Positions 1 to 36,788 of a stretch of 37,476 bases of DNA are shown here, in pieces. Below the pieces are notes generated by a model. That model worked only from the letters and a program-made list of their open reading frames with translations, was not told where the DNA came from and did no database searches. The DNA is from a virus. The DNA is taken from positions 1 to 37,476 of IMG/VR virus record IMGVR_UViG_3300020179_000080. The stretch is one strand, 5' to 3'. Position 1 is the stretch's first letter; every line of letters begins with the position of its first letter. The translations under genes and the position numbers were made by a program.

Positions 1-1032
1 AGAAGGCTGCCCAGCGGAGGCTGGGTGGCTGATTTTCGAGTCGACGGCAAACGACGCCAGCTCAAGGCAAAGACAAAGGCAGAAGCCAAGGCCCGCATGG
101 ATGAGGCCCTGGACGAGAGCGCCGTTGCCAACAAGCGCAGACGAACCAACAGCTTCACCATTGGCCAGGCCTGGGCGTTGACCGCAAAGGTCCGCTGGGC
201 TGGCCAGGCCTGCGAAAGCAACGCCAACGGGTACGCCCGGCAGGTGGTGGCGTTCTTTGGTCCAGAGCGGGCGCTGGCAAGCATCAGCGTTCGAGACTTT
301 GAGGACATGCGCCAGCACTTCCTGCGACGGGGCAACAAGCCAGCCACCATCAACTGGAAGGCCTCGACGTTGCAGTCGATGTTTGCCGACGCCGAAAAGT
401 ACGAGCACATCAGCAGGGACGACATCCCGCGCTTTCCCAAGCGGTTGCCAATGAACAACATCAAGGAACGGATCCTTGAGGACGACGAACTGCGGGCGTT
501 CTGCGCCTACCTGCAGGCCATTGAGAAGCACGAGGCCGCCTACTTGCTGGTGTTCCTGTGTGAGGTCGGCTGTCGGTTCTCAGAGGCCGCTCGCCTAATC
601 GGCAGGGATGTGGACCTGCAGGCCAACAGGGTGGTGTTCCGCAAGACAAAGAACCGGCAGCCGCGAACGGTGCCGCTGACCACCGCCGCGGCCGATGCCA
701 TCCGTCCCTTCATGCCGGTGCTCTCAGGCCAGCACATTTGGGGGCTGCGGTACAAGCAGTTCCAGTACCTCTTTGACCGGGCCAAGGCGGCCGTGGGGCT
801 TGCTGACGACGAGCTGCTGACCATCCACGTCACCAGGCACACCTGCGCCTCACGCCTAACCCGCAGCGGATCGTCGCTGCTCAACGTCATGAAATGGGGA
901 GGCTGGGCTGGGCTCAAAAGTGTGCAGCGCTATGCCCACGTCGACCTGGCCTCGCTGGAGGCCGCGGCCGAGCTGTTGCAATGTGGACGAAGTGGTGGAC
1001 CGCCACCGCTGCAAAAAATTACTTGCAACTGA
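1..1032 (+). CDS. int: Tyrosine-type integrase, 5' end cut by the window edge
   Basis: Site-specific recombinase that would integrate and excise the phage genome. The frame is open to base 1; counted from a GTG at 25 it gives 335 residues. The first readable residues (RRLPSGGWVADFRVDGKRR) look like an arm-type DNA-binding strand, so the true start lies upstream. The catalytic set is intact in GTG-25 numbering: R184 (GCRFSEA), H268 and R271 (HVTRH), W294 and nucleophile Y303 (QRYAH). If the contig is circular, the frame continues from ATG 37354 and totals about 384 residues, a normal size for the family. It lies directly before a cluster of TTGCAA repeats that may be its arm sites. Functional call is secure; the N-terminus is inferred. 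Confidence 0.93.
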   Translation, partial: RRLPSGGWVADFRVDGKRRQLKAKTKAEAKARMDEALDESAVANKRRRTNSFTIGQAWALTAKVRWAGQACESNANGYARQVVAFFGPERALASISVRDFEDMRQHFLRRGNKPATINWKASTLQSMFADAEKYEHISRDDIPRFPKRLPMNNIKERILEDDELRAFCAYLQAIEKHEAAYLLVFLCEVGCRFSEAARLIGRDVDLQANRVVFRKTKNRQPRTVPLTTAAADAIRPFMPVLSGQHIWGLRYKQFQYLFDRAKAAVGLADDELLTIHVTRHTCASRLTRSGSSLLNVMKWGGWAGLKSVQRYAHVDLASLEAAAELLQCGRSGGPPPLQKITCN

Positions 1033-1226
1033 TTTGCAACCGTCGCCCAATGACCAGTCTGGGAGTCAATCTTGATCACATCGCCAAAGTGCGCACCTAG
1101 GCACTACAAGGCCGTAGAGCAAAACAAAGGACTGCAGCGCCTAGCTTTTCTCTTGCTAATACGGCCCTGCTGTACTCACAGTGGGTTTGCAACACACGAA
1201 TTGCAAATTGCAACCGATGTGCAACC
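1023..1226. repeat. Cluster of TTGCAA-type repeats, candidate attP / integrase arm sites
   Basis: Copies are at 1023-1030 (TTGCAACT), 1034-1041 (TTGCAACC), 1187-1194 (TTGCAACA), 1201-1208 (TTGCAAAT), 1208-1215 (TTGCAACC), and a degenerate GTGCAACC at 1219-1226. One more lies inside int at 976. The copies are mostly direct and fall in two groups flanking about 145 bases, directly after int. That spacing of short direct repeats around a central region is what phage attP sites of lambda-type integrases look like. No tRNA-like core identity is recognisable, so the role is inferred. They could instead be regulator sites for the polymerase gene. Confidence 0.5.
1104..1117 (+). promoter_or_regulatory. 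Candidate phage promoter motif, copy 1 (CTACAAGGCCGTAG)
   Basis: Dyad motif CTAC-N6-GTAG upstream of the RNA polymerase gene. Apart from orientation its 14 bases are identical to the copy at 28218-28231 in the late arm. It lies about 64 bases before the GTG at 1181, inside the TTGCAA repeat region. It would place the polymerase gene under its own control. Confidence 0.6.
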
Positions 1227-3631
1227 CATCTGACGGCCTGGTCGCTGAGCAGTTGCAGCGGCAGACCAAGGCCGAACGAAGGGCTGCCGAAGCGTTTCAG
1301 AGCTCTCAGCGGCGCCTGCGAGAGCTTGGCAAGGAGTCAGCCCTGCCATATGGCCAGCGGCTCTACAGCGTCTGCCTAGAGGCCTTAGCGGCGTCCCTGG
1401 AGGGGGCGTTTGAGGACTTCCTGCTGGCGCCGGATAAGGCCAGGGCCCACGCCGCGGCCATGCCCTACTTCGACGCCTTCAAGGGCGTGCATCACATTGC
1501 CGCAGTCGCCCTGGTGGCAACGCTGGACCAGCTCAGCCGCAAGCAGCGCATGGCCACGTTTTGCCAGAACCTTGGCAGGGCGGTAGAGGACGAAACAAGG
1601 CTTAGCCGGCTGGAGAACAAAAGCCCGCTGGAGCTGCGCCGGCTGATGCGGCATGGCATGAACCGCCGCAAGATTGCCAGCAAGGAAGTTATGGCCCAGC
1701 TGGGGTGCCCGGCCCCGGCATGGAACGACATGGCCCGGCTGCAGGTCGGGCAGTTCCTGCTGGATCACATCAACACAGCGACTGGGTTGGTGCGGGTGGT
1801 CAAGCACCGCATTGGCAGGACCATGCCGTATTTCGTGCTGCCCAGCGCTGAGGCGGAGGAGTTTATCCGTGAGTGCCCGCGGGGCACCTACAAGGCCTCG
1901 CACAGCGCCATGGTCTGCCCGCCTGAGCCTTGGCCGGGGCTGTATGGCGGCGGGCTGATGGGCAACCAGGAGTGTCTAATTCGGGTGCCCATCCAGGACA
2001 ACGAAGAGAAAGACAGCACCGCCATCGAGCACTACCGCAAGGCGGACTTGTACAACTTTTTTAAGGGGGTCAACCATTTGCAGGCCACCCCGTTGGTGGT
2101 CGACGCCCAGATGGTGGAGCTACAGCGCACGGCTTGGGACAACGGCATTGACGGGCTGTTTCCCTGCAGGCGGGCGCCGATGGACGTGCCCGAACGGTTG
2201 GGCGATGAACCCACGGCTGATGAGCTGCGGGCCCGCAACCGCCTGGCGGCCATGGCCCACCGCGACAGGGAGCAAAACAGAACGCGGCGGATCAAGATCG
2301 AGCGGGCGCTGCAGTCAGCCGAGGAGCTTGCTGGCCGCACTGTCTGGCAGTCCTATCACGCTGATCACAGAGGCCGGATTTACAGCGGGAACAAGTACGT
2401 CACCCATCAAGGGCCCGACTACGAGAAGGCGCTGTTGTCGTTTGAGCAGCAGGCTGCAGCCACCGACGAGGGCATCGAATGGATTTTCAAGGCTGCTGCC
2501 GGCCACTACGGGCTAAGTCGGAGCTACTGGAGCGAGCGGCTGCGCTGGGGACAGCAGCACAAGGACCAGATGCTGGCCGCTGCTGCTGACCCGCTGGGGC
2601 GCCTGGAGCTGTGGCGATCAGCAAAGGACCCATGGCAGTTCCTGCAGATGTGCAAAGGCCTGCAGGAGGCGCTGGAGACCGGTTCTACCGGCGTGCCCAT
2701 CCGCTTGGACCAGACAACCAGCGGCTGCGGAATCCTGGCTGCCTTGGTGCGGGACGCCAAGGTCGGCCGGCTTTGCAACCTGTTTGGCAACACCCCGCGA
2801 GACCTGTACTCCGTCATTGCTGAGCGGGTGGTCAGACGCCTGACAGTGGACCTGGAGATGGGCGACGAGCGGGCTAAGGCACTGGCCGAGCTTTGGCTTA
2901 ACCGTGGCATTGACCGCGGCTTGGTCAAGGGGCCGATCCTGGCAACGCCTTACGGGGGCTCTTACATGAGCCTCTGCGACAGCCTGGTTGACGCCTTGGA
3001 CGAGCACCTGGGCTACGTCCCGCTGGACGAGTTCGCCTTTCGCGTAGCCATTCCTGCCAAATACCTGGCCAGCCACCTGTGGGCCGAGCTCAAGGCCGTG
3101 GTGCAGCCCTGCATTGACGTGAAAACTTGGCTGAAAAAGTCCTGCCGGCTGGTCATGACGGCTGGGCACCCGCTGGAGTGGACGACCCCAATGGGCTGGC
3201 CGATGCGGCTTGCAGATCGGGAGCCAACCAAACGCAGAGTGACAACGCTGATGTTCGGGCGAAAGGTGAGCCTGAGTATCCAGGACCAGCCGGTCAGCTC
3301 CCCGCTGTCACCGACGCAGGCAAACAAGGGTATAGGCGCCAACTTTGTCCACGCCTTTGACGCTGCGCTTTGCCAGCAGCTCATCTACAGGGCCGGAGAG
3401 CTTGGTATGCCTTTGCTGACAAACCACGACTGTTTCGCCAGTCATATAAACGACGCCAGGCAGCTTCATACGATGTTACACAGCGGCTTTCGGGACATGC
3501 ACCGCACTAATTGGTTACAGGTAGCGCGTGAAGAAATTCAGTTGCTGACTGGTGTTTTGCTGCCTGAGCCACCTTACGTTGGAACCCTGCAGTCGGGTCT
3601 GGTTGGCACAAATCCGTATTTGTACTCATGA
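1181..3631 (+). CDS. T7-like single-subunit DNA-dependent RNA polymerase
   Basis: Transcribes the phage genome from phage-specific promoters. Catalytic elements of the T7 family are present, in GTG-1181 numbering: palm aspartate in DQTTSGCG (about 510; T7 D537), finger lysine and tyrosine in GLVKGPILATPYGG (about 583 and 591; T7 K631/Y639), GIGANFVHAFD, and NHDCF with D750 (T7 D812). At 816 residues it is close to T7 RNAP (883). The start is uncertain: GTG 1181, or ATG 1217 giving 804 residues; neither has a clear ribosome site. A T7-promoter-like TAATACG lies at 1157-1163. Its likely targets are the CTAC-N6-GTAG motifs along the window. Confidence 0.97.
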   Translation: MGLQHTNCKLQPMCNPSDGLVAEQLQRQTKAERRAAEAFQSSQRRLRELGKESALPYGQRLYSVCLEALAASLEGAFEDFLLAPDKARAHAAAMPYFDAFKGVHHIAAVALVATLDQLSRKQRMATFCQNLGRAVEDETRLSRLENKSPLELRRLMRHGMNRRKIASKEVMAQLGCPAPAWNDMARLQVGQFLLDHINTATGLVRVVKHRIGRTMPYFVLPSAEAEEFIRECPRGTYKASHSAMVCPPEPWPGLYGGGLMGNQECLIRVPIQDNEEKDSTAIEHYRKADLYNFFKGVNHLQATPLVVDAQMVELQRTAWDNGIDGLFPCRRAPMDVPERLGDEPTADELRARNRLAAMAHRDREQNRTRRIKIERALQSAEELAGRTVWQSYHADHRGRIYSGNKYVTHQGPDYEKALLSFEQQAAATDEGIEWIFKAAAGHYGLSRSYWSERLRWGQQHKDQMLAAAADPLGRLELWRSAKDPWQFLQMCKGLQEALETGSTGVPIRLDQTTSGCGILAALVRDAKVGRLCNLFGNTPRDLYSVIAERVVRRLTVDLEMGDERAKALAELWLNRGIDRGLVKGPILATPYGGSYMSLCDSLVDALDEHLGYVPLDEFAFRVAIPAKYLASHLWAELKAVVQPCIDVKTWLKKSCRLVMTAGHPLEWTTPMGWPMRLADREPTKRRVTTLMFGRKVSLSIQDQPVSSPLSPTQANKGIGANFVHAFDAALCQQLIYRAGELGMPLLTNHDCFASHINDARQLHTMLHSGFRDMHRTNWLQVAREEIQLLTGVLLPEPPYVGTLQSGLVGTNPYLYS

Positions 3632-3647
3632 GACTTACGTATGACAT

Positions 3648-3661
3648 CTACACCCCCGTGG
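3648..3661 (+). promoter_or_regulatory. Candidate phage promoter motif, copy 2 (CTACACCCCCGTGG)
   Basis: Dyad motif in the 69-base gap between the RNA polymerase and ssDNA-binding genes, 39 bases before the ATG at 3701. A small stem (CGTGG 3678-3682 with CCACG 3691-3695) lies between it and the start codon and could modulate translation. Confidence 0.55.
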
Positions 3662-3700
3662 AATAGGCGGTAATTTTCGTGGGCCTTTAACCACGACCAC

Positions 3701-4270
3701 ATGCCCAAACTGCAAGTCACCCCTCTCGCGGAGTGCCGTTGGTTCAAGCTCCTAGGTGAAGCCCGCGAAAACAAATTTGATCCCAGCAAGCCACCTACCT
3801 GGAGTTGCGAGCTGATTCTCGACAACGACAACAAGACCCACATGGCGTGGATCGAGGAAATGGAAGCTAAGTACAAGGAGTTTCACGGCGAAACAAAAAA
3901 ATCCGGCAACTGGTTTCCTGCCAAGCCTGACCCTGAATCCCCGCGTTCACGCACTGTGGTCAGCTTCAAGCTGCCGATGTGGACCCGCAAAGACGGCACC
4001 GTCAGCGAAGGCCCCTCAGTTTTTGACGCTGGTCGCAACCCCTGGGACCAGAAGCGCCTTGTGGGCAATGGTTCAAAAGTAATCATTGGCTTTGACATCT
4101 ACGCCTGGCCCAGCCGTGGCACAGGTGCTGGCCTGACGTTTCAACCCCGGCAGGCCCAAGTGGTCGACCTTGTTGAGTACGTCAGCGAGGAGAAGAAGGC
4201 GGAGTGCGTCTTTGAGCCAGTTCCCGGTGGCTTTGTAGACGAGGGCTGTGTGTTCAATGCAGTCAGTTGA
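3701..4270 (+). CDS. Single-stranded DNA-binding protein, T7 gp2.5-like
   Basis: Protein of 189 residues with the size, position and composition of the cyanophage gp2.5-type ssDNA-binding proteins. It would coat single strands at the fork and contact replication partners. Visible features are an aromatic-rich OB-fold-like core (KLPMWTRKDG..., IIGFDIYAWPSRG) and an acidic region near the C-terminus (LVEYVSEEKKAECVFEP). The extreme C-terminus, VDEGCVFNAVS, is less acidic than the T7 gp2.5 tail that binds polymerase. That is worth noting because no phage DNA polymerase gene is present. It overlaps the resolvase start by 14 bases and is the first gene after promoter motif copy 2. Confidence 0.8.
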   Translation: MPKLQVTPLAECRWFKLLGEARENKFDPSKPPTWSCELILDNDNKTHMAWIEEMEAKYKEFHGETKKSGNWFPAKPDPESPRSRTVVSFKLPMWTRKDGTVSEGPSVFDAGRNPWDQKRLVGNGSKVIIGFDIYAWPSRGTGAGLTFQPRQAQVVDLVEYVSEEKKAECVFEPVPGGFVDEGCVFNAVS

Positions 4271-4616
4271 CCTTTGCCTGCCGCTTGCGCCGAAGTCCAA
4301 GGCACGCCCGCGGACTTACCTGGGCCAGGCCAGGCCCTACATGGAGCAGGCCTACAAGGAATGGATTGCTAAGGCCAGAGCCCTGATGGGCGAATACTGG
4401 ACCCTCCCACCCCTTGATCACATCGACTGTTTGGTTGTCACCTTCTACGGGCCAGCCCGTGGTGATCTCGACAACCGCCTTGGCGCTCTGCTGGATGCAG
4501 GCAATGGCCTGATTTGGACAGACGACAACGTGAAAGTGATTGGCACGGTTGCAATGAAATGGCGCAAAAGCACCATCAAAGACGCTCACATCAACTTCAC
4601 CATTATTTGGCAATGA
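4257..4616 (+). CDS. RusA-like Holliday-junction resolvase
   Basis: Endonuclease of 119 residues that would resolve branched DNA before packaging, the job T7 gp3 does. The RusA-family acidic pattern is clear: GDLDNRLGALLDAGNG followed by WTDDNVKVI, giving the metal-binding aspartates D-x-DN ... D ... DD. The N-terminus has the usual basic strand (PKSKARPRTYLG). ATG 4257 is chosen over GTG 4248; both overlap the ssDNA-binding gene. The stop overlaps the next ATG (ATGA at 4613-4616), so translation is coupled. Replacement of the T7 gp3 endonuclease by a RusA type is an established alternative in phages. Confidence 0.85.
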   Translation: MQSVDLCLPLAPKSKARPRTYLGQARPYMEQAYKEWIAKARALMGEYWTLPPLDHIDCLVVTFYGPARGDLDNRLGALLDAGNGLIWTDDNVKVIGTVAMKWRKSTIKDAHINFTIIWQ

Positions 4617-4810
4617 TCAAATGTCCACATTGCGGCTCGGTCGACTCGACCGTTTCGTACACCTACAACAAACAGGATTACGTCCTGCGGCACCGTCGAT
4701 GCCGCGGTTGCGGCGCCGACTACCACACCCATGAAGTCCTTGCCATCAATGCTGGAAAGTCTCGTGGCTTCATCCTCGATCTCCCGCTTCAACAAGGAGG
4801 AACGGAGTGA
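4613..4810 (+). CDS. Small zinc-ribbon protein of unknown function
   Basis: Protein of 65 residues with two CxxC pairs, CPHCGSVDS near the N-terminus and CRGCG about 25 residues later, separated by an aromatic/basic stretch. This is the zinc-ribbon layout seen at the N-terminus of NrdR and in many small phage proteins. It starts in an ATGA overlap with the resolvase stop and its 3' end overlaps the primase-helicase frame. It could bind nucleic acid or recruit a partner; nothing more specific can be said. Confidence 0.75.
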   Translation: MIKCPHCGSVDSTVSYTYNKQDYVLRHRRCRGCGADYHTHEVLAINAGKSRGFILDLPLQQGGTE

Positions 4811-6380
4811 GTCGCGCTTTGTTGGCCATGGGTCTTGCGCTAGCTGCGGCAGCAGTGACGGCCTTGCGATCTACACCGACCACACCTACTGCTTCGTCTG
4901 CAACACCTACACGAAAGCGGAAGGGGAGGAACGACCCACCCGATCCAACCATCTTTCGCCAATGACCACCCTCACCATTGAGGCGTGGAAGGACGAGTCC
5001 TACCGGGGCCTGTCCAAGCGTGTGCTGGAGCAGTACGGCGTGCTGCGCACGGCTGACGGCATCGTCTTTCAATACCGGGACCAGGCGGGCAAGATCATTG
5101 CCCAGAAGTTCCGCAGCGAAGACAAGCGCATTAGCTGGAAAGGGGACGCAAAGAGCGTTGTCGGTTTCGGCAGCCATCTGGCCAATCCTGGCCATCACGA
5201 CGCCATTGCCATCTGCGAGGGCGAGCTTGATGCCCCATCGGTCTATGCCGCCACCAACGGCAAGGTTGTTGGCATCTCCGTGCCCAACGGTGCTCAGTCA
5301 GCAGCGGCCTGGGTGCGCAAGCACCTTGATCAGTTCAATCAGTTCAAGACCGTCTACATCGCCACTGATAACGACGAGCCAGGTGAGGCCGCGGCCAACG
5401 CCTTGGTGGAACTGTTTGAGGCTGGTCAGGTGCGGCGTGTGGTGTTCCCCCGCAAGGACGCCAACGACACCCTGCAGGAGCTCGGCGGGCAGGCCGTCAA
5501 AGAATCCATCTACGCCGCAAAGCAGCTGCGGCCTGATGGCATCAAGCCAGCGTCGGCCTACGAGGGCATTGTCCTCAAGCCGGCCAAACGCACGGCAGTC
5601 AACTGCGCCTTTGCCTGGTGGAACCAGAAGACACCCTTCTATGACAACCAGCTGATCGTGCTGATTGCTGGCTCAGGCATCGGCAAGACCACCTTTGCCC
5701 GTGCCCTGGCCCTCCATGACATGGAGAACGGCATCAAGGTCGGCTGGATTGGCCTGGAAGAAACAGCAGACGAGGCAATCTTCCGCTTCGTGGGCATGGC
5801 AGCTGGCTTGCAGCTTCATGCCAGGCAGACTTACGCCGGTCTTACCGATCAGCAGCTGCAAGACATTGCGCAGGCTGACAAGTTTGTGACCGGCAGCGGG
5901 ATGCTGGAACTGTTTGATCACTTTGGCTCGCTTGACGAGAACGTGATCCTCCAGCGGATGAACTACATGGTCCGCTCGCTGGGGTGCCAGCACATCTACC
6001 TTGACCACCTGACAATCATTGGCTCCGGCCTGGCGCAGGACGTTCGGCAGCTGGATGCGCTGATCACCAAGATCCGCTCTTTCATCGCGGCCACAAAATG
6101 CACGGTGTTTGCCATCAGTCACCTAAACCGCGGCAGCAGTCAGGTGAAAAACATGGAAGACGGCGGCGTCCCTGAGCTGCATGACATCAGGGGTAGCCAT
6201 TCCGTTGTGCAGTTGGCAGACACTATCTGGGCCCTGGGCCGCAGGCGCGGGACACAGCTAACCCATTCCTACTGCTTGAAAAACAGGATGCTCGGCCGAT
6301 GTGGCTATGCAGGCTCCTTCGTCTTCGACGAGGAAACACAAGCGCTGGAACAGAGATGGGAAGACCAGGCATTGAACTAA
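4731..6380 (+). CDS. T7 gp4-like primase-helicase
   Basis: Bifunctional replisome enzyme of up to 549 residues (T7 gp4A is 566). An N-terminal zinc site is present, C36-x2-C39 and C54-x2-C57, with the sequence CGSSDG typical of gp4. The TOPRIM primase domain has EGELD (E163), the DND metal site (D213/D215) and KDAND (about 240). The helicase domain has Walker A GSGIGKTT (314-321), then GLEET, YLDHLTII and ISHLNRG, ending in an arginine-containing loop. The start is uncertain: ATG 4731 and 4749 both overlap the zinc-ribbon gene and no ATG lies nearer the zinc motif. In T7 the next gene would be DNA polymerase; here it is a set of small unknown genes. Confidence 0.96.
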   Translation: MKSLPSMLESLVASSSISRFNKEERSESRFVGHGSCASCGSSDGLAIYTDHTYCFVCNTYTKAEGEERPTRSNHLSPMTTLTIEAWKDESYRGLSKRVLEQYGVLRTADGIVFQYRDQAGKIIAQKFRSEDKRISWKGDAKSVVGFGSHLANPGHHDAIAICEGELDAPSVYAATNGKVVGISVPNGAQSAAAWVRKHLDQFNQFKTVYIATDNDEPGEAAANALVELFEAGQVRRVVFPRKDANDTLQELGGQAVKESIYAAKQLRPDGIKPASAYEGIVLKPAKRTAVNCAFAWWNQKTPFYDNQLIVLIAGSGIGKTTFARALALHDMENGIKVGWIGLEETADEAIFRFVGMAAGLQLHARQTYAGLTDQQLQDIAQADKFVTGSGMLELFDHFGSLDENVILQRMNYMVRSLGCQHIYLDHLTIIGSGLAQDVRQLDALITKIRSFIAATKCTVFAISHLNRGSSQVKNMEDGGVPELHDIRGSHSVVQLADTIWALGRRRGTQLTHSYCLKNRMLGRCGYAGSFVFDEETQALEQRWEDQALN

Positions 6381-6568
6381 ACAGCTGGAAACAGCTGCGC
6401 AAAGGCCAGGCCGTCCATTTCTACACAGCTGACGGTTGGCGGAAAGGCCACGTCACCTTTGTCAACACCGCTTCAATCACGGTCCTTTGGGACCAAAACT
6501 CTACCCAACGAAACACCAATGTCTACGACCTCCGCAATGTTCGACTCTTTGACACCAGATCCAAATGA
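6356..6568 (+). CDS. Small hypothetical protein, possible SH3/KOW-like barrel
   Basis: Protein of 70 residues starting at ATG 6356, 25 bases inside the primase-helicase end. The sequence alternates hydrophobic and polar residues in short strands (GQAVHFYTADGWRKGHVTFV, then SITVLWDQ), which suggests a small beta-barrel of SH3/KOW type. That is an impression from pattern, not a family match. It is the first of four tightly packed small genes in the position occupied by DNA polymerase in T7. Confidence 0.6.
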   Translation: MGRPGIELNSWKQLRKGQAVHFYTADGWRKGHVTFVNTASITVLWDQNSTQRNTNVYDLRNVRLFDTRSK

Positions 6569-6728
6569 CAGACCACTTGACCTGTCGCTAGGAGTGATCA
6601 AACGTCTCCTAGAGGATGCTTACGGGCATTACAACAAGGCAATCATGAGCGACGCCAAGCACGTTGCCAGCTACTGGGACGGCTACATCCGCGCCTGCCA
6701 ACACATCTTGGAGGCAGAAAGAGAATGA
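6537..6728 (+). CDS. Small hypothetical protein
   Basis: About 63 residues from ATG 6537 (an alternative ATG lies at 6519). Predicted largely helical (GVIKRLLEDAYGHYNKAIM, SYWDGYIRACQHILEAERE). It overlaps the previous gene by about 30 bases and its stop overlaps the next ATG (6725-6728), so it belongs to a coupled chain. No family recognised. Confidence 0.55.
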   Translation: MFDSLTPDPNDRPLDLSLGVIKRLLEDAYGHYNKAIMSDAKHVASYWDGYIRACQHILEAERE

Positions 6729-6952
6729 GCTGGATGGTCCCTGGCCGCCTGCCGCAAGAAGGTCCTGAGCCAATTCTTGGTGAAGGCGTTAGCCGGGCGC
6801 ACAAGTATGAGCGCACCAAGGTCTTTTGGCTAAATGTCAAACGGCCTACTGCTTCACCAATGCGCGTAGCCATCAAGGCTGCAACCGCCCGCAAAGCCAT
6901 TCGCTATTGCAAAAACCGCTGGCCTGACGCAACTGTCACTGCAATCAAATGA
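6725..6952 (+). CDS. Small basic hypothetical protein
   Basis: Protein of 75 residues, basic, with a stretch KAATARKAIRYCKNRWPDATVTAI that resembles the small phage and host proteins that modify or sense amino-terminal stretches of repeats such as AxxARxAI...NxxP. The match is not strong enough to name. Start and stop both overlap neighbours as ATGA (6725-6728 and 6949-6952), which supports it being translated. Confidence 0.6.
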   Translation: MSWMVPGRLPQEGPEPILGEGVSRAHKYERTKVFWLNVKRPTASPMRVAIKAATARKAIRYCKNRWPDATVTAIK

Positions 6953-7173
6953 CCCTACTCAACAACCTCACTGATTTGTACTGGAGCCTTGGCGAGTACA
7001 GCATTGACGACCGCCGCCGCATGAAGGCAGTCGTTCATGAGCTAGCTGGCGTAATTCGCACCTGGGCCCCGGATCCAGGGCAAGCGCGTATTTGCCACTT
7101 GGCCATTAACGAGATAGCCGACCGTTTGCTGAAAGAGGTCGAGGAGCACGTCGACACGTCGAAAGAGACGTGA
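6949..7173 (+). CDS. Small helical hypothetical protein
   Basis: Protein of 74 residues, apparently all helical (LYWSLGEYSIDDRRRMKAVVHELAGVI, ICHLAINEIADRLLKEVEEHV). It begins in an ATGA overlap with the previous gene and ends in a stem-loop followed by a T run. The family is not recognised. It is last of the four genes that separate primase-helicase from exonuclease. Confidence 0.6.
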   Translation: MTLLNNLTDLYWSLGEYSIDDRRRMKAVVHELAGVIRTWAPDPGQARICHLAINEIADRLLKEVEEHVDTSKET

Positions 7174-7184
7174 CGCATTTTTTT
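7155..7184 (+). terminator. Weak terminator-like stem-loop before the exonuclease gene
   Basis: Perfect 6-bp stem CACGTC (7155-7160) / GACGTG (7167-7172) with loop GAAAGA, then a run of seven T at 7178-7184 after a 5-base gap. The gap makes it weaker than a canonical factor-independent terminator. It could instead be an RNA-processing or attenuation site. Confidence 0.4.
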
Positions 7185-7211
7185 CAAGCACACCAACGCC
7201 TTTGACTACCT

Positions 7212-7937
7212 ATGCGCATCCTTGTAGACGCTGAGACGTTTCTATTCCGGTGCATAGCCGGAGCAGAGCACGAAACTGAGTGGGCCCCTGACAAATGGAC
7301 CTACGAGGTTGACCTCTCGCAAGCCAAAGACGCTTTTGATCAAGAGATGGCTCGCGTGCAGGACATAATCCCAGGCACACCGCTCATCCTGACGTTTGGT
7401 GACATTAACAATTTTCGCTACGCCGTCTACCCGCAGTACAAGGCCAACCGCCGCAAGCAGCGCCGCCCTGCTGGGTTCACCGCCCTCAAGGACTGGGCCC
7501 GCAAGACCTGGGTATCGCAGTCCTACCCCGGCGTAGAGGGCGATGACGTGATTGGAATTATGGCTCGCGGTCACGACATCATTGTCAGCCGCGACAAAGA
7601 CCTAAAAACCATTGCTGGTACGCACCTCATTGGCGACGAACTGCACCCAATCGGACCGCCGCAAGCTGACATGGCCTTTTTTACGCAAGTTCTTACAGGC
7701 GATACGGCTGATGGCTACCCAGGTTGCCCCAAGGTTGGCCCGGTCAAAGCGGCGCAAATCCTTGAAGGTTGCAATAAGCCAAGCCAATTCTGGCTGGCAG
7801 TAGTCATGGCCTACAAAAGCAATGGCAGCAACGCTGAAACTGCGCTGCAAATGGCCCGCTGTGCACGCATCTTGCGACGCGGCGAATACGACATCGAAAA
7901 GGAGCGGCCGGTGTTGTGGGAGCCTCCTACCCTGTGA
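7212..7937 (+). CDS. T7 gp6-like 5'-3' exonuclease (FEN/PIN family)
   Basis: Exonuclease of 241 residues that would remove RNA primers and degrade host DNA. The FEN-family acidic sites are all visible: LVDAE (D6), the helical-arch basic YKANRRKQRR, EGDDVIG (E109/D111/D112), VSRDKDL, and a helix-hairpin-helix-like DTADGYPGCPKVGPVKA. Size fits T7 gp6 (300) and the shorter cyanophage versions. This is a stand-alone nuclease with no polymerase domain attached. It is the last replication gene of the + arm, immediately before promoter motif copy 3 and the lysin gene. Confidence 0.93.
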   Translation: MRILVDAETFLFRCIAGAEHETEWAPDKWTYEVDLSQAKDAFDQEMARVQDIIPGTPLILTFGDINNFRYAVYPQYKANRRKQRRPAGFTALKDWARKTWVSQSYPGVEGDDVIGIMARGHDIIVSRDKDLKTIAGTHLIGDELHPIGPPQADMAFFTQVLTGDTADGYPGCPKVGPVKAAQILEGCNKPSQFWLAVVMAYKSNGSNAETALQMARCARILRRGEYDIEKERPVLWEPPTL

Positions 7938-7940
7938 GTG

Positions 7941-7954
7941 ATACGGGGCCGTAA
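7941..7954 (+). promoter_or_regulatory. Candidate phage promoter motif, copy 3 (ATACGGGGCCGTAA)
   Basis: Dyad motif whose last base is the A of the lysin ATG at 7954. It is preceded by TGAGTG, as at copies 28218-28231 and 13754-13767 (complement). If RNA starts at the end of the motif the lysin message would be leaderless. Confidence 0.5.
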
Positions 7955-8664
7955 TGCAGCTCACCACCCAAGGCTTTGCCAACTTCTTCGCCTACTACCA
8001 GGGCGAGGCCATGCAGCAGCGTGGCGTAGAGCTCCTCTACCTGGCGCTAGCCAAGAAATGCCCGGAGCTGCTGGAGGACGACGCCGACTGGATTGAGGTC
8101 TACCGGCAGAAACCTGTCATCACGGTCGGCAACCCGCTGCTTGTGGAATACATGAGCCAGCTAGACAACGGCCCTGAGGGCTGGCGGCAATGCCAGACCA
8201 GCAGCATCGCCATGTGCCTGCGCTATCTCGGTACACGCCTCCCAGCTACCGGCCAACGCTTAGACGACGACCTCAAGTACCTGCCATTTGTCAAAAAACA
8301 CGGCGATACCACGTCACAGGTTGCCCACCAGCAAGCACTTACGGAGCTTGGCGTTCGCCATCGCTTTAGAACCAACCTGCACAAGCAAGATTTGATTCGT
8401 GAGATCGACAAGGGCTACCCCGTGGCCATCGGCGTGCTGCATCACGGTCCCGCGTCGGCTCCCAAGGGCGGCGGGCACTACATCGTGGTCCGCGGATACA
8501 CCGACACACACGCCCTGGTCCACGACCCCTACGGCTCGATTGATCTGGTCAATGGCGGCTGGGCTGCAACGGGCAACAACAGCGGCAAGAACGAGAAGTA
8601 CAGCTGGAAGAACCTGATTCCCCGCTGGGACATCGGTGGCGGCTGGGGCTGGACATTCAGCTGA
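7954..8664 (+). CDS. C39-like cysteine peptidase, probable cell-wall lysin
   Basis: Protein of 236 residues. The C-terminal two thirds has the C39-like peptidase pattern: QCQTSSIAMCLRYLG with C80 as nucleophile, GGGHYIVVRGY with H175, and VHDPYG with D191. The N-terminal about 55 residues (GEAMQQRGVELLYLALAKK..PELLEDDADW) share a pattern with the N-terminus of the glucosaminidase at 33440-34033, suggesting a common targeting domain. A role in cross-wall peptide cleavage at lysis or infection is inferred. It sits in the early arm, facing three small - strand genes. An alternative start is ATG 8011. Confidence 0.75.
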   Translation: MQLTTQGFANFFAYYQGEAMQQRGVELLYLALAKKCPELLEDDADWIEVYRQKPVITVGNPLLVEYMSQLDNGPEGWRQCQTSSIAMCLRYLGTRLPATGQRLDDDLKYLPFVKKHGDTTSQVAHQQALTELGVRHRFRTNLHKQDLIREIDKGYPVAIGVLHHGPASAPKGGGHYIVVRGYTDTHALVHDPYGSIDLVNGGWAATGNNSGKNEKYSWKNLIPRWDIGGGWGWTFS

Positions 8665-17187: not shown

Positions 17188-20100
17188 TTAGCAACCTCCG
17201 TTGAGTGCTTGGGTTTTGAGCGCGGCAATCTGGGCATCCAAACCAGCAACTTCGTTGTTGATTCGGGCTTGTACCGCTTTGTTATCGGAAGCCCACATTT
17301 TCAGAAACTCGTAACGGCTTACTTGGTTGTCAGTAAAAAGGTCAAGCGCTGAATCAAACGCGCGCTCGCGGGCGATGTCGCCCTCGTAGACCTTGCGGAA
17401 AAAGTCCTCAGCTGACGTAAAACCGTTGCCCTGCCAGTAGTTCCTGAACTGTTCAAGGAACTGCTGCATTTTGTCAAACGCGCGCAGCACACCACCTGCA
17501 ACCTTGGCGGTCATGGTGTCGCCCCAGGACTTGCCGTTCTTCTTGGGTAGAACGCTGTCCAGAGCGGCCACAAAGTCCTGCTGGAACATTTTTCCGTAGG
17601 GATCGCTAACACCCCTCGCCCGCAGCTCCGCATAAGTCTGATAGGCCACGGCCATGCGCTCAATCGTTGCCACCTCCATCCGGGCAGGGATGCCGGAGTA
17701 ATCCGTAATCCGCTGCTTGCCAAAAGCGGTTTCCATCGCCTTCATCTCACCCAGATTCATTAAGCCAAGTTGGACCCGGTGAAAGGCTTCGTGGTGGGCG
17801 ACAGAGATCAGCTCGCTTGGAGACGCCTCAAGCATCCCAAAGATTGTCACTACATCTTTGGTGGTGCTGTATCTCCCTTGCACCGGCACAATTTGATCTC
17901 CGCCACCCCATGCGGCACTCCGGCGCTCCATCAGAAACTTATCCTCAAACTTAACGGCAACGTGATCACCGGCCACGTCCCTGATAATTTGAGTCAAAGC
18001 CGCTTCCCAGAGTTTTTTGTCACTTGGTGGGATGGTGATGCCAGCGTCGCCAAGCCGGATAAATGCCCGCTCTTTCTTTCGCCGAATTGGGTCAACGCTT
18101 TGCAATTCGCCAAGGGCATTGGTAAAGCCTTGGTCGGGCACCTCAACGGCCATTTGCTTGCCCACCGGGGCAGCAGCAGAACCCGTTTGGGCTTTTACCT
18201 GTGTCTTGATCTGCTCGTTGACCGCTACGCCATGGCGGCGAATGGCCGGGATGTCGTAACCCTGGGCCTCCAGGGCAGCGACCAGGCGGTCCTCGCCAGC
18301 TGATTTCTTGCTGGCATTACGCAGCATGTACGCCGCACGGTCTAAATCGTTTGCGAATTTGAGCGTGGCGCTGCCGTAGCGCGGTGCGGACTTGCTCAGG
18401 TCGGGCGGGAACGAGAACGCTGGCCTCTCGGAGTCGGGCTTGTCCCACCCATCCAGCATCCCGTTGGCCTTCTTCTCTTCCAGAGGCATGAAGTCGTACC
18501 CCATGGCCTCGCGGTTGGCCCGCTCGATCTCAAACTGCCGGCGTGCGTCCATCTGGGCGTACTCGGTGCCCAAACGGATCTCGTCCATGATTGCTTGAGC
18601 GCCCGGAGAGCCAGCCGTCAGGCCATTAGCTTCCAAGTCCTTGGCGGCCAATGCGGGGTCCACCAAAGGGCCTGCAGGGATTTCAGGGATTGGCGTTGCG
18701 CTGGGGCGGACTTCGCCGTTGGCGACTGCCTTTTGTATGACTTGATCCTTTAGAGCCTGGCGGCCGGCCTCGGTCAAAAACACCTGCTCTGGTGCTTGAG
18801 GTTCAGGAGCAGGGACGGCCTCTGCTGCCTTTGGTGCAACTGGAGGTGGAGACGCCTCCGCTGCTGTTTCCAACTGCTGCAGGATGCGCTTGATGATGGG
18901 TGCGGGCTTAGCGCCATTGGCCACCGCAGCGGCAGCCTCATTCAGCATTTGGCTAATGGGAGTGCCGGCGGCGTACTTGGCAGCGTCGAACTCACCCAGC
19001 ACCGCCTGCGCAGTGGCGCCTGCGTCGATCACCTGCTGGGCATTGACCTCAGTGCCGCCCTTGTCAGCCAGTTGTTGCACCGAACGGCCGCGGCCAACCC
19101 GTTTGAACAGGTTTTTGTTGCCGATCAGCTCGGCGCGAATCTTGCCGGCCAACTCCGCTTTGATGACAGTGGTGTCCAGCTCCTCATCGCCAAACAAGTT
19201 TTTCTGATTGGTCTTCACCTTGGGTGCGCTGCTGGCCATCTGGGCCAGCTCGCTAAAAGCCCGGTCTGTCATGTCCCGCCCCTGGGCGAGCTGATAGACG
19301 CGGTTCATCTTTTCCGGCTCCAGGCCGCTACCGCCAAGCGCCAGGGCCCGGCCCATAGACAGCTCGCCATCAATGGCGGACTGCAGCAAATTGTCCGGCA
19401 ACTTGCTCAGCGCCAGGCCCTGGGCGCCAAGGCCAGAGCCTAGCGGGATGCCTGATGCCTCCAGCTGGGCGGCGTCCTGGATGCCGGCCTCACGGATGAA
19501 CTTGGCTGCGTCAAACGCTGTGCCACCACCGGATGAGATGTTGCTGATGGCCCCCATGGCACGGGCCTGCTCAGCGGTTTGAGCGGGCAGCTCCTCAACG
19601 CGAATTGAAGGGACGCCTAGCTCTTTGGCTTTGGCCAGGCGGTTGTGGCCATTAACCACAAACGTCTGCCCGTCAGCAGGGTCTGTCCAAACTTGGATAA
19701 CACCCTCGGCGTCGGTGTTCCATTTGGAGACGCCCTGCAGCGAGTTGCCGATCTGCTGGCCTTGGGCGTTGATGCCTCCCTTGAATTGGAAGCGGCCAGG
19801 GTCAACTTGGATTGAGTTGACATCAAACAGCTGCACGCCGTCCGCAGCCCGGTTGGAAAGCAGGGCAACGCCTTCTTGGCCCAAGGAGTCGATGCCATCA
19901 AGCACGTCCTGCCGTGTGAACTGCTCAAAGTCCCGGCCGGTCAGCTCACGGACGCGGTTGTAGAGCAAAGTCCCGTTTTCGGGACTTGCCAGCGACATCA
20001 AATTGGCGTTAGGCACCGCGGTCGATGCCCACTGCTGCCGCATAGGCACCATCGGGTCGGCCAAGTTTTCAGCTGGCATGGCCATGAAGGCCGGATTTAG

Positions 20101-21408
20101 CCCAGGCACCACCTCAAACTGGCTTTGCTCCTGCAGGTGACGGTCAACCTCAGGCACCACGGGGCCAGAGCCAGTGGCCAGCTCCTGCAGCCGCTGGTCA
20201 TCAAGCCGGTTGACGCCCATGGCAACGACATCAACCTCAGGCAGCGCCGGGTCGTAGAAGGGATCGACGTTTGGATCAGCCTGCGGCAGAGGGGCGTCGG
20301 GGTTGAGAACAGCACCGCCTGGAGCCATTGGCTCAGACGGCACCGCGGCAGCGGCCGGCTCACCTACCAGCTGATCGCGGGCCTGCGCAGTGGTTTGCGC
20401 TGCAGGCTGTGCTGCAGGTGGCTGCTGCTGTGCCTCCTCGCGAAAGCGGTATTCGTCAGGTGACACCTCCTCCTGGATGCCAGATGCCACCGTTTGCTGG
20501 CGGGAATTTGTGGCCTCAGTGAGAGTGCGGCGCTCCCGCAAGTTGCGAGCAATGTTGGGCAAGCCTTTAAGGCCCGCCGAAACGGTCTTGCCAACACCCA
20601 GAAAACCCAGGCCAACGGCCACCTCAGCGCCTGCGTTGGGCAGCAAGCTCTTAAGCGATGAGCTCAGCCGGTCATCTTGCGGAGAGACAGCAAACGGGCT
20701 GTTGGGCACCGCATTAGCGATGTTGCCGGATAGGTTGTCTGTGATCAGGGTTGTCAGAAACGATTCCGTGCCAATGCCAGCCGTCCAGCGGGCGGCCTTG
20801 GCCGCGCCAGGGCTTAGAAAGCCAAAGGCTTGCGGGCCAACAATGCGGGAAGCAGCCGCACCACCCAGAAAAGAAGCCGATGCCAGCGCAGGAATGTCGC
20901 TGAACCACGTCTTCTGGTAGGTCGACATCTCCTCCGGCAGCTTGGCGTCTATCGCCTTGGCCAGGTATCTAGTGAGCTCGTTGATACCCCTGCCAACAGG
21001 CGTTGATACAGGATCGGCTGGCTTCCATCCGTTGGCGGCCCGCTGCGCCAGGTTGAGCGCGGCATAGGCCGCGTCGGCTGGCATCTTCACGGCAGCGCCG
21101 TGGACCACCTGCCGTTCCAGCGGAGTGCTGTAGCGAACCCGGCCCTTAGGGTCCTGATACTGCACCGGGGCAAACATGCTGCCTGGCGCCATCAACGGCG
21201 TTGAAACAGTTCCAGTTGGCGTGTACCCGGCGTTCATTAAGCCGGCTTGCTTCAGGAAATACTTGGCCTCGTTTTTGATGCCAGCTGGCGTGAAGTACCA
21301 CGTCCAGGGGCGGCCAGGAGGTTTGGCTTTGGGCTTGGCGGCAGGCTGCTGTGGGATAACAGGTGTCGCCTCAAGGCCAGTGATCTGCCTACGCCGCTGC
21401 TCGGGCAT
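17188..21408 (-). CDS. Giant internal virion protein with ParB-like and HExxH domains
   Basis: Protein of 1406 residues from ATG 21408 (a TTG at 21426 would add six). A proline-rich N-terminus is followed by a long helical stretch. A ParB/sulfiredoxin-like segment lies at about 530-650 (VNSIQVDPGRFQFKG ... TFVVNGHNRLAKAKELG). Ala/Pro linkers follow, then a zincin signature HEAFH at 1206-1210 (VAHHEAFHRVQLG), with a downstream acidic helix (ATIERMAVAYQTYAE) that could supply the third ligand. It is in the gp16 position and is probably packaged and ejected with DNA. The ParB-like fold occurs in ejected antirestriction-type proteins of other phages; here nuclease or protease activity is an inference. 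Confidence 0.8.
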   Translation of the reverse strand: MPEQRRRQITGLEATPVIPQQPAAKPKAKPPGRPWTWYFTPAGIKNEAKYFLKQAGLMNAGYTPTGTVSTPLMAPGSMFAPVQYQDPKGRVRYSTPLERQVVHGAAVKMPADAAYAALNLAQRAANGWKPADPVSTPVGRGINELTRYLAKAIDAKLPEEMSTYQKTWFSDIPALASASFLGGAAASRIVGPQAFGFLSPGAAKAARWTAGIGTESFLTTLITDNLSGNIANAVPNSPFAVSPQDDRLSSSLKSLLPNAGAEVAVGLGFLGVGKTVSAGLKGLPNIARNLRERRTLTEATNSRQQTVASGIQEEVSPDEYRFREEAQQQPPAAQPAAQTTAQARDQLVGEPAAAAVPSEPMAPGGAVLNPDAPLPQADPNVDPFYDPALPEVDVVAMGVNRLDDQRLQELATGSGPVVPEVDRHLQEQSQFEVVPGLNPAFMAMPAENLADPMVPMRQQWASTAVPNANLMSLASPENGTLLYNRVRELTGRDFEQFTRQDVLDGIDSLGQEGVALLSNRAADGVQLFDVNSIQVDPGRFQFKGGINAQGQQIGNSLQGVSKWNTDAEGVIQVWTDPADGQTFVVNGHNRLAKAKELGVPSIRVEELPAQTAEQARAMGAISNISSGGGTAFDAAKFIREAGIQDAAQLEASGIPLGSGLGAQGLALSKLPDNLLQSAIDGELSMGRALALGGSGLEPEKMNRVYQLAQGRDMTDRAFSELAQMASSAPKVKTNQKNLFGDEELDTTVIKAELAGKIRAELIGNKNLFKRVGRGRSVQQLADKGGTEVNAQQVIDAGATAQAVLGEFDAAKYAAGTPISQMLNEAAAAVANGAKPAPIIKRILQQLETAAEASPPPVAPKAAEAVPAPEPQAPEQVFLTEAGRQALKDQVIQKAVANGEVRPSATPIPEIPAGPLVDPALAAKDLEANGLTAGSPGAQAIMDEIRLGTEYAQMDARRQFEIERANREAMGYDFMPLEEKKANGMLDGWDKPDSERPAFSFPPDLSKSAPRYGSATLKFANDLDRAAYMLRNASKKSAGEDRLVAALEAQGYDIPAIRRHGVAVNEQIKTQVKAQTGSAAAPVGKQMAVEVPDQGFTNALGELQSVDPIRRKKERAFIRLGDAGITIPPSDKKLWEAALTQIIRDVAGDHVAVKFEDKFLMERRSAAWGGGDQIVPVQGRYSTTKDVVTIFGMLEASPSELISVAHHEAFHRVQLGLMNLGEMKAMETAFGKQRITDYSGIPARMEVATIERMAVAYQTYAELRARGVSDPYGKMFQQDFVAALDSVLPKKNGKSWGDTMTAKVAGGVLRAFDKMQQFLEQFRNYWQGNGFTSAEDFFRKVYEGDIARERAFDSALDLFTDNQVSRYEFLKMWASDNKAVQARINNEVAGLDAQIAALKTQALNGGC

Positions 21409-21440
21409 TGATTTCGCGCCACACAACTACCCCTATTTCA

Positions 21441-33439: not shown

Positions 33440-34033
33440 CTATGGCCGACGCCGAAGAATGGTAATTAGCTTTTTGCTATACAGCGGGTCCGTGGCATAG
33501 CCCTCTGACTGCAGCAACCGGGCACATTCCTCTGCAGAAGTTGCTCGGTTGACCCCGCGAAACCCTTTGTAGTCCTTGTACCAGCGATCACAGAGGTAGC
33601 GGACAGCATGGCCAAGGCTGGTGAAGTCCATGAAAGACGCTGTGATCTGCACAGCTTTGCCGTCATACACCTCTTGCGTCTTTTTCGGCGTTCCTGGCCC
33701 CTTAAGTCCAAACATGTTCCAGCGACCAGACGGATGAGCCCCGTAATTGCTCTCCAAAGCCCACTGAGCAGCGACCACCTGCGGGAAACGGGCCCCGTAG
33801 GCCGCGGCAGCCGCCTTAACCCCCTCCCAGCTATTTGGATACTCATGCTCGGCTAGCTGCTTAGCGGTAAATAGCTGCAACCACTCAGCCGATTGGTGCA
33901 AAAGCGCTGGATCCGTGGCCTTGATGTGCTCATACAGCAGGTTGATAGCCTCCTGCTGGTGGTTTTCGCCTCTAAACCACCGCCAGCAATCCCGCCATTT
34001 TTGTGGCGTGATTAAACCATCGTGAATTGTCAT
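33440..34033 (-). CDS. Glucosaminidase-type endolysin
   Basis: Protein of 197 residues. Residues about 75-190 match the GH73/FlgJ-type glucosaminidase fold: FPQVVAAQWALESNYGAHPSGRWNMFGLKG, with the catalytic glutamate in LESNYG; TASFMDFTSLGHAVRYLCDRWYKDYKGF; and GYATDPLYSKKLITIL. It would cut the glycan strands of peptidoglycan. The N-terminal 60 residues share a GE..QQ....LLY....PALL...AEW pattern with the C39-like lysin at 7954-8664. It is divergent from TerS, with promoter motif copy 9 between them. Confidence 0.85.
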   Translation of the reverse strand: MTIHDGLITPQKWRDCWRWFRGENHQQEAINLLYEHIKATDPALLHQSAEWLQLFTAKQLAEHEYPNSWEGVKAAAAAYGARFPQVVAAQWALESNYGAHPSGRWNMFGLKGPGTPKKTQEVYDGKAVQITASFMDFTSLGHAVRYLCDRWYKDYKGFRGVNRATSAEECARLLQSEGYATDPLYSKKLITILRRRP

Positions 34034-36344: not shown

Positions 36345-36755
36345 CTAAGCCTCGTCTCCACTTAACCCACCAGGAACCCTCAGCAACTTCGCTCGCTCAC
36401 TTGGCCTTAACGCCTCACCCATCACCTCAATCGCTGCACGCTGCGCTTCCACCTGGCTTGGATGCAACACCCGGTACAGCCGTTTCCTGGACCCCCCTCC
36501 CCAACTGCTGGTCAAACCAAGACAACTGATCAGCCCGTTATCCAGCAGCAAATCCACAGCCCTCAATACCGTCGCCTTCCCTAACCCACACACCTCCGCC
36601 AACGCCTTGTGGCTCATCTCTGTCGTCCCCCCGCACTCCCCCCGCTGGTCATGCCATGCCGCCTCCCACAACACCCCATACACCAACCCACACTCCTTCC
36701 CAAGCTCACAGGCCTCCCGCATTAACGGGCAGGCACCATCCAACCGAACAGCCAT
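36345..36755 (-). CDS. Winged-helix DNA-binding protein, possible repressor or replication regulator
   Basis: Protein of 136 residues from ATG 36755. A helix-turn-helix is clear at about residues 45-85: MSHKALAEVCGLGKATVLRAVDLLLDNGLISCLG, followed by a basic wing (SSWGGGSRKRLYRVLHP). This layout occurs in phage and plasmid regulators and replication initiators. Upstream lie two 33-bp direct repeats flanking promoter motif copy 10; repeat 1 abuts the start codon, so autoregulation is plausible. It is the only candidate regulator of lysogeny in the window; no CI-like protein is seen. Confidence 0.7.
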   Translation of the reverse strand: MAVRLDGACPLMREACELGKECGLVYGVLWEAAWHDQRGECGGTTEMSHKALAEVCGLGKATVLRAVDLLLDNGLISCLGLTSSWGGGSRKRLYRVLHPSQVEAQRAAIEVMGEALRPSERAKLLRVPGGLSGDEA

Positions 36756-36788
36756 CAAGGGTTCTGTGCAGAACACAGATAAAGAAGG
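36756..36788. promoter_or_regulatory. Direct repeat / operator candidate 1, with internal dyad GTTCT-N4-AGAAC
   Basis: This 33-base element begins right after the winged-helix ATG and matches 36837-36869 at 29 of 33 positions. The internal dyad is at 36761-36774. Differences between the copies fall mainly in the dyad's 4-base loop, the pattern expected of a protein-binding site. Confidence 0.65.

Follow-up and report, generated by a model that had tools for sequence, protein, structure and literature searches.

Among T7-like cyanophages, absence of the DNA polymerase gene has a precedent. The MPP-C cyanopodoviruses P-SCSP1 and P-SCSP2 have been described without one, and recruitment of host DNA polymerase I (Pol I), recruitment of host Pol III and a divergent phage polymerase were all stated as hypotheses, SPP1 being cited as a case in which host Pol III is taken over (Cai et al., 2022; PMC9860041). 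The stretch analysed here, the whole of the linear 37,476 bp IMG/VR virus record IMGVR_UViG_3300020179_000080 (the window), resembles MPP-C in carrying the T7-like order of RNA polymerase, ssDNA-binding protein (SSB), gp4 primase-helicase and gp6-type exonuclease with no DNA polymerase. It encodes a phage single-subunit RNA polymerase and T7-type portal, nozzle, capsid and terminase, as expected of Autographiviridae (T7-like phages), but not the gene 5-type DNA polymerase found between gp4 and gp6, a gene that is typical of this family rather than strictly defining, as the MPP-C members lack it as well. The original prediction, made from this DNA alone, had singled out a T7-like replication module without a polymerase, but this is not new as such, since polymerase-less T7-like cyanophages were reported in 2022 with the same hypotheses (PMC9860041). 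The window, however, represents a separate polymerase-less lineage, the loss in this lineage was hidden by mislabelled genes, and it carries small genes so far found only in polymerase-less T7-like phages. No report of polymerase absence in this lineage was found in the literature searched, which does not prove that none exists.

Searches of all six frames for the Pfam families DNA_pol_A, DNA_pol_B and DNA_pol3_alpha gave no match in the window, nor in 17 polymerase-less relatives, several of them complete, and the control phage P-RSP2 was positive for DNA_pol_A. With every filter switched off, a custom profile of nine or ten T7-like polymerases reached a best E-value of 5.5 in the window, compared with 1e-58 to 1e-250 for the controls. 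The claim that no family A, B or C polymerase is present is therefore borne out. Relatives found via gp4 agree with this, as all 71 of the 71 spanned loci have no polymerase between gp4 and the exonuclease, with a gap of 15–1858 nt, whereas polymerase-positive loci of other lineages have a gap of 1832 nt or more, which holds the polymerase; every polymerase-positive T7-like locus examined has its polymerase in this slot. Judged by sequence comparison, the window is a genuinely polymerase-less T7-like phage whose lack of the gene was inherited. It is fairly probable that the polymerase was lost in the ancestor of the S37C6/S-SRP02 lineage and that a host polymerase, likely Pol III, copies the phage DNA together with the phage gp4 and SSB.

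One named relative is the uncultured phage S37C6, with a major capsid protein (MCP) and a gp4 that are 86% and 73% identical, respectively, to those of the window. In a structural-gene tree built on portal, capsid, tail tube and exonuclease, the window groups with S37C6, S31C1, S38C3 and S-SRP02 in a clade of five (support 100/100), none of which has a gene 5 polymerase. The window is a member of the S-SRP02-like cluster, or uvMED G9, which comprises Oinezvirus S37C6, Nohivirus S31C1, Stopalavirus S38C3 and the isolate S-SRP02 (PMC8790148; PMC3861242), and within which MCP identities range from 53 to 86%. S37C6 has the gene order of the window and no polymerase, whereas S-SRP02 and S38C3 differ and are also without gp4. 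These two phages (L081 and L085) and around 60 IMG/VR loci (including L319–L379) form a sister clade that lacks both gp4 and polymerase but has kept the RNA polymerase, SSB and exonuclease. Whilst the window shares with MPP-C the lack of an identifiable DNA polymerase, it does not fall in a monophyletic group with P-SCSP1 and P-SCSP2. Its clade is distinct from both MPP-C and S39C11, the latter being the sister of the polymerase-positive P-RSP2, and the capsid is only ~36% identical to that of MPP-C. Further differences from MPP-C are a GC content of ~57% against 34–39%, virion genes on the opposite strand, a RusA gene where P-SCSP1 has endonuclease I, and the presence of four small genes, s1–s4, between gp4 and the exonuclease; P-SCSP2 does share an integrase and a Zn-ribbon gene with the window. 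Polymerase-less phages occupy three places in the structural tree, and a single polymerase-less clade was rejected (p 4e-8). Vertical inheritance accords with the polymerase tree of polymerase-positive cyanophages, which makes losses the simpler reading, and as a gp4 and exonuclease tree of 48 representatives needs just two changes, two losses are the safe minimum. Infection of Prochlorococcus MED4 is a trait of MPP-C; for the window, an uncultured contig, the host is probably a freshwater picocyanobacterium, judging from the freshwater phage S-SRP02, which infects Synechococcus SR-C1, and from the GC content. A host link via contigs of metagenome-assembled genomes was rejected, the single contig found probably being a misbinned phage.

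Public records give the name 'DNA polymerase I' to the gp6-type exonucleases (phrog_107) of S37C6 and S-SRP02 (L081:22389-23129, L081 being S-SRP02, and L001:20647-21378). In the description of S-SRP02, ORF34 is listed as DNA polymerase I and a 'DNA polymerase' was used in a tree (PMC8790148). This open reading frame (ORF) is the gp6-type exonuclease (phrog_107), and it is this exonuclease that was apparently used as DNA polymerase in the published concatenated tree.

In T7, the gp4 primase-helicase and the gp2.5 SSB dock on the gp5 polymerase through acidic C-terminal tails whose last residue is phenylalanine. The acidic-Phe tip is gone from the gp4 of the window, which ends in ...RWEDQALN, and the SSB, ending in ...CVFNAVS, is without it too. 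Among dereplicated phages, a C-terminal [DE]F was found in gp4 of 12 of 19 polymerase-positive phages and in none of 29 polymerase-less ones; for SSB it occurs in all 41 distinct MPP-B tails and in 0 of 45 in the window's group. MPP-C SSBs retain the [DE]F end, however, so this trend is not universal, and as the counts are clustered by clade, with around two independent contrasts on the tree, no significance is claimed. The suggestion that a weaker acidic tail on the SSB fits the loss of its usual partner is nevertheless supported, and extends to the gp4 tip.

Comparison points to loss of the gene 5 polymerase in the lineage ancestor, whilst the window still has genes for its own RNA polymerase, helicase-primase, SSB, resolvase and primer-removing exonuclease. 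By exclusion, DNA synthesis would fall to a host polymerase. The likeliest enzyme would be Pol III, the replicative polymerase, working with the host clamp; gp4 would both open the fork and lay the primers that Pol III extends. The T7-type contacts of the Phe-ended tails with gp5 are gone, as the gp4 and SSB sequences show, and recruitment would probably proceed via other contacts, for which the Zn-ribbon protein, s3 and s4 are the best candidates, owing to their association with polymerase absence.

The four small genes of the slot, originally described as coupled, are real ATG-to-TGA frames, each sharing 4 to 32 nt with its predecessor; none belongs to a Pfam family or has a convincing PHROG match. 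Their occurrence was scored with iterated profiles. In the window's group (74 loci) s1 was found in 52, s2 in 63, s3 in 26 and s4 in 20, and in the gp4-less relatives (47 loci) in 35, 45, 35 and 27, respectively, but none of the four occurs in any of the 81 polymerase-positive spanned loci. Among 34 polymerase-less loci retrieved with an S39C11 query, some of which group with MPP-C in the gp4 tree, s3 is present in 14 and s4 in 16. Homologues of s3 thus occur in three polymerase-less lineages, and the s4 of MPP-C-like polymerase-less phages is 56–58% identical to that of the window; in whole records, s4 is present in 7 of 16 polymerase-less and 0 of 21 polymerase-positive phages. The Zn-ribbon gene, which lies between RusA and gp4 and had been overlooked in the first gene list, is more widespread still (63/74 in the window's group, 47/47 in the gp4-less group, 19/34 of the S39C11-query loci and 0/81 polymerase-positive loci; in whole records 13/16 against 0/21, and also in P-SCSP2). 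As a separate observation, IMG/VR holds MPP-C-like polymerase-less phages beyond the isolates (L277, L286, L288, L301, L305), some of which have an s3, s4 or Zn-ribbon gene like that of the window.

The original proposal that one of the slot genes recruits the host polymerase stands in so far as s1–s4 are confined to polymerase-less loci and s3 and s4 recur in other polymerase-less lineages, but none of them is universal. Eleven relatives (L044–L056) have gp4 abutting the exonuclease and none of s1–s4, so no slot gene is indispensable, whilst all eleven retain the Zn-ribbon gene. Going by these occurrences, the Zn-ribbon gene outside the slot is the better common factor. A tentative extension, less likely than not, is that an adaptor set of Zn-ribbon, s3 and s4, partly exchanged between polymerase-less lineages, links the fork of the phage with the replicase of the host, and that one clade went on to shed its primase-helicase, its SSB gaining a bacterial-type C-terminal (SSB-Ct) docking tip, with nearly the entire host replisome hijacked as a result. 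Beyond the eleven relatives, several points weigh against host recruitment as set out here. The window replication proteins showed no clear beta-clamp motif, with pattern-level matches only; the window's own SSB is without the bacterial-type tip; the three-helix AF2 model of s4, although confident (pLDDT 90.6), has no informative fold match; the Zn-ribbon fold is small and common; and since all the associations cluster by clade, few independent events lie behind them. It may instead be that s1–s4 and the Zn-ribbon gene have nothing to do with polymerase recruitment and are simply lineage genes, or host-range genes, of phages of marine and freshwater picocyanobacteria, since phylogenetic clustering lets any lineage gene track polymerase loss. 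The prospects of this are only slightly poorer than even, given that s3, s4 and the Zn-ribbon gene occur in lineages kept apart by the structural tree and in no polymerase-positive record, the freshwater S-SRP01 included. Such a role would be compatible with use of a host polymerase and is a rival to the adaptors only. A phage sliding clamp as the borrowed link was rejected, DNA_pol3_beta_3 being absent from 19 of 19 records; the 'Pol III beta' label in S-SRP02 was likewise set aside as a weak match that scores equally well against RusA.

Recruitment of host Pol I in place of Pol III, as also proposed for MPP-C (PMC9860041), is rather unlikely. Pol I and gp5 belong to one family (family A), so that gp4 contacts could be re-targeted, and the window's lineage does retain gp4; the acidic-Phe docking tips, however, are gone from both gp4 and SSB, and the gp4-less sister clade needs a host helicase and primase anyway, pointing to the replicative machinery. 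No DnaB_C helicase was found anywhere in 17 long records of the gp4-less group, and in 47 of 47 spanned loci two ORFs stand in the place of gp4, the one for a longer Zn-ribbon protein and the other termed ORF2. A confident structure model of ORF2 has no PDB match above noise, and its weak viral-library matches, which include a "replisome organizer" and the G39P helicase loader, are not significant. The SSBs of this clade end in [DE]xPF in 37 of 39 distinct tails, compared with 0 of 69 in the polymerase-positive B, E and named sets. Bacterial SSBs carry a C-terminal tip of this form. As a general mark of polymerase loss the tip was rejected, since a PF ending is likewise present in polymerase-positive G8 phages and is missing from the window SSB; it is near-universal in the gp4-less clade only. 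With gp4 lost as well, that clade at least must rely on the complete fork machinery of the host. The window sits on a different branch, but the gp4-less clade argues for a lineage that depends on host fork machinery. Since close relatives have dropped helicase and primase too, Pol III is the likelier of the two host polymerases.

It is very improbable that a highly diverged polymerase lies hidden in the window, for example in the unmatched frames of 774–1412 aa. Three large minus-strand frames are without a Pfam family, and this option was left open for MPP-C (PMC9860041), but the unmatched frames sit in the virion block at internal virion protein positions, the unfiltered polymerase profile found nothing in them, and in every polymerase-positive T7-like locus examined the polymerase keeps to the gp4–exonuclease slot. 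Tail fibre, nozzle, portal and terminase account for the remaining large frames on the minus strand. That the gene is missing merely through an incomplete or mis-assembled contig is close to refuted: although the window is short of the relative G001 by ~3.3–4.7 kb between its two ends, the counterpart of this segment in G001 holds an integrase and no polymerase, its ORFs being no longer than 337 aa, G001 (42,461 bp, complete, with a 127-bp terminal repeat) and the complete S37C6 carry no polymerase anywhere, and two near-identical contigs from other metagenomes (97% identity) span the slot without gaps. The slot is intact in the 71 relatives too, which speaks against a segment lost between 6380 and 7212, and an assembly gap or deletion was rejected on these grounds.

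The replication block lies on the plus strand (25–7937; Table 1), with the RNA polymerase, gp2.5-type SSB, RusA, gp4 and gp6-type exonuclease confirmed by Pfam and PHROG matches where they had been placed. The gp4 has a Zn motif, Toprim and DnaB_C domains, and its exact start is uncertain, whilst RusA occupies the place of endonuclease I in polymerase-positive T7-like phages.

Table 1. Genes of the plus-strand replication block of the window
Feature	Position	Strand	Matches and remarks
Tyrosine integrase	25..1032	+	PF00589 2e-20; 5' end cut off by contig end
T7-type single-subunit RNA polymerase	1181..3631	+	PF00940 8.7e-52, PF14700 3.3e-14
gp2.5-like ssDNA-binding protein (SSB)	3701..4270	+	phrog_112 2.7e-13
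RusA-like Holliday junction resolvase	4248..4616	+	PF05866 2.1e-7; phrog_140 6e-13
NrdR-type Zn-ribbon protein, 65 aa	4613..4810	+	phrog_10675 6.6e-5
gp4-type primase-helicase	4731..6380	+	phrog_239 3.5e-122; PF03796 2.5e-15; PF13155 6e-10
s1, slot protein, 70 aa	6356..6568	+	ATG-to-TGA frame, no family
s2, slot protein, 63 aa	6537..6728	+	ATG-to-TGA frame, no family
s3, slot protein, 75 aa	6725..6952	+	ATG-to-TGA frame, no family
s4, three-helix slot protein, 74 aa	6949..7173	+	ATG-to-TGA frame, no family
gp6-type 5'-3' exonuclease	7212..7937	+	phrog_107 8.7e-52; PF02739/PF01367

The integrase gene is common to S37C6, S31C1, S-SRP02 and S38C3, and no tRNA or attP was found in the window. The virion genes (tail fibre, nozzle, portal, capsid, terminase) are on the minus strand, recognised through PF12236, PF25675 and PF22530 and, for the capsid, MCP homology. 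The virion block (10122–36041) runs in the opposite direction to the replication block, an arrangement shared by S37C6 and S31C1 but absent from S-SRP02 and S38C3. Within it, a 1412-aa frame (17188–21426, minus strand) matches phrog_21, annotated as portal, over residues 526–791 only and sits at an internal virion protein position. Two ORFs at 7954–8664 (plus) and 33440–34033 (minus) match residues 227–450 and 32–209 of one endolysin family, phrog_10051; the lysis enzyme therefore looks split, with its genes 25 kb apart. A 143-aa winged-helix protein (36345–36776, minus) adjoins the terminase, is kept in G001 and S37C6 and weakly matches O-like replication initiator families; it could be an initiator, a regulator or a small terminase.

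T7-like cyanophages are usually counted by their DNA polymerase gene, a marker to which the window's lineage, like MPP-C, is invisible, a problem made worse by public records that call the exonuclease a polymerase. The series of related phages with polymerase and gp4, with gp4 only, and with neither offers a natural experiment on the handover of a replisome to the host, which the cultured member S-SRP02 makes testable. Compared with the T7 replisome of gp5, gp4, gp2.5 and host thioredoxin, the window has orthologues of gp4, gp2.5, gp6 and the RNA polymerase, but no gp5, its docking tails are lost and RusA replaces gp3. The likeness to SPP1 is that the phage would supply part of the fork and borrow the host replicase. 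No initiator or helicase loader of the SPP1 kind was recognised in the window, only the weak O-like winged-helix ORF noted above; where SPP1 encodes an initiator, a loader and a DnaB-like helicase, the window keeps the fused gp4 primase-helicase.

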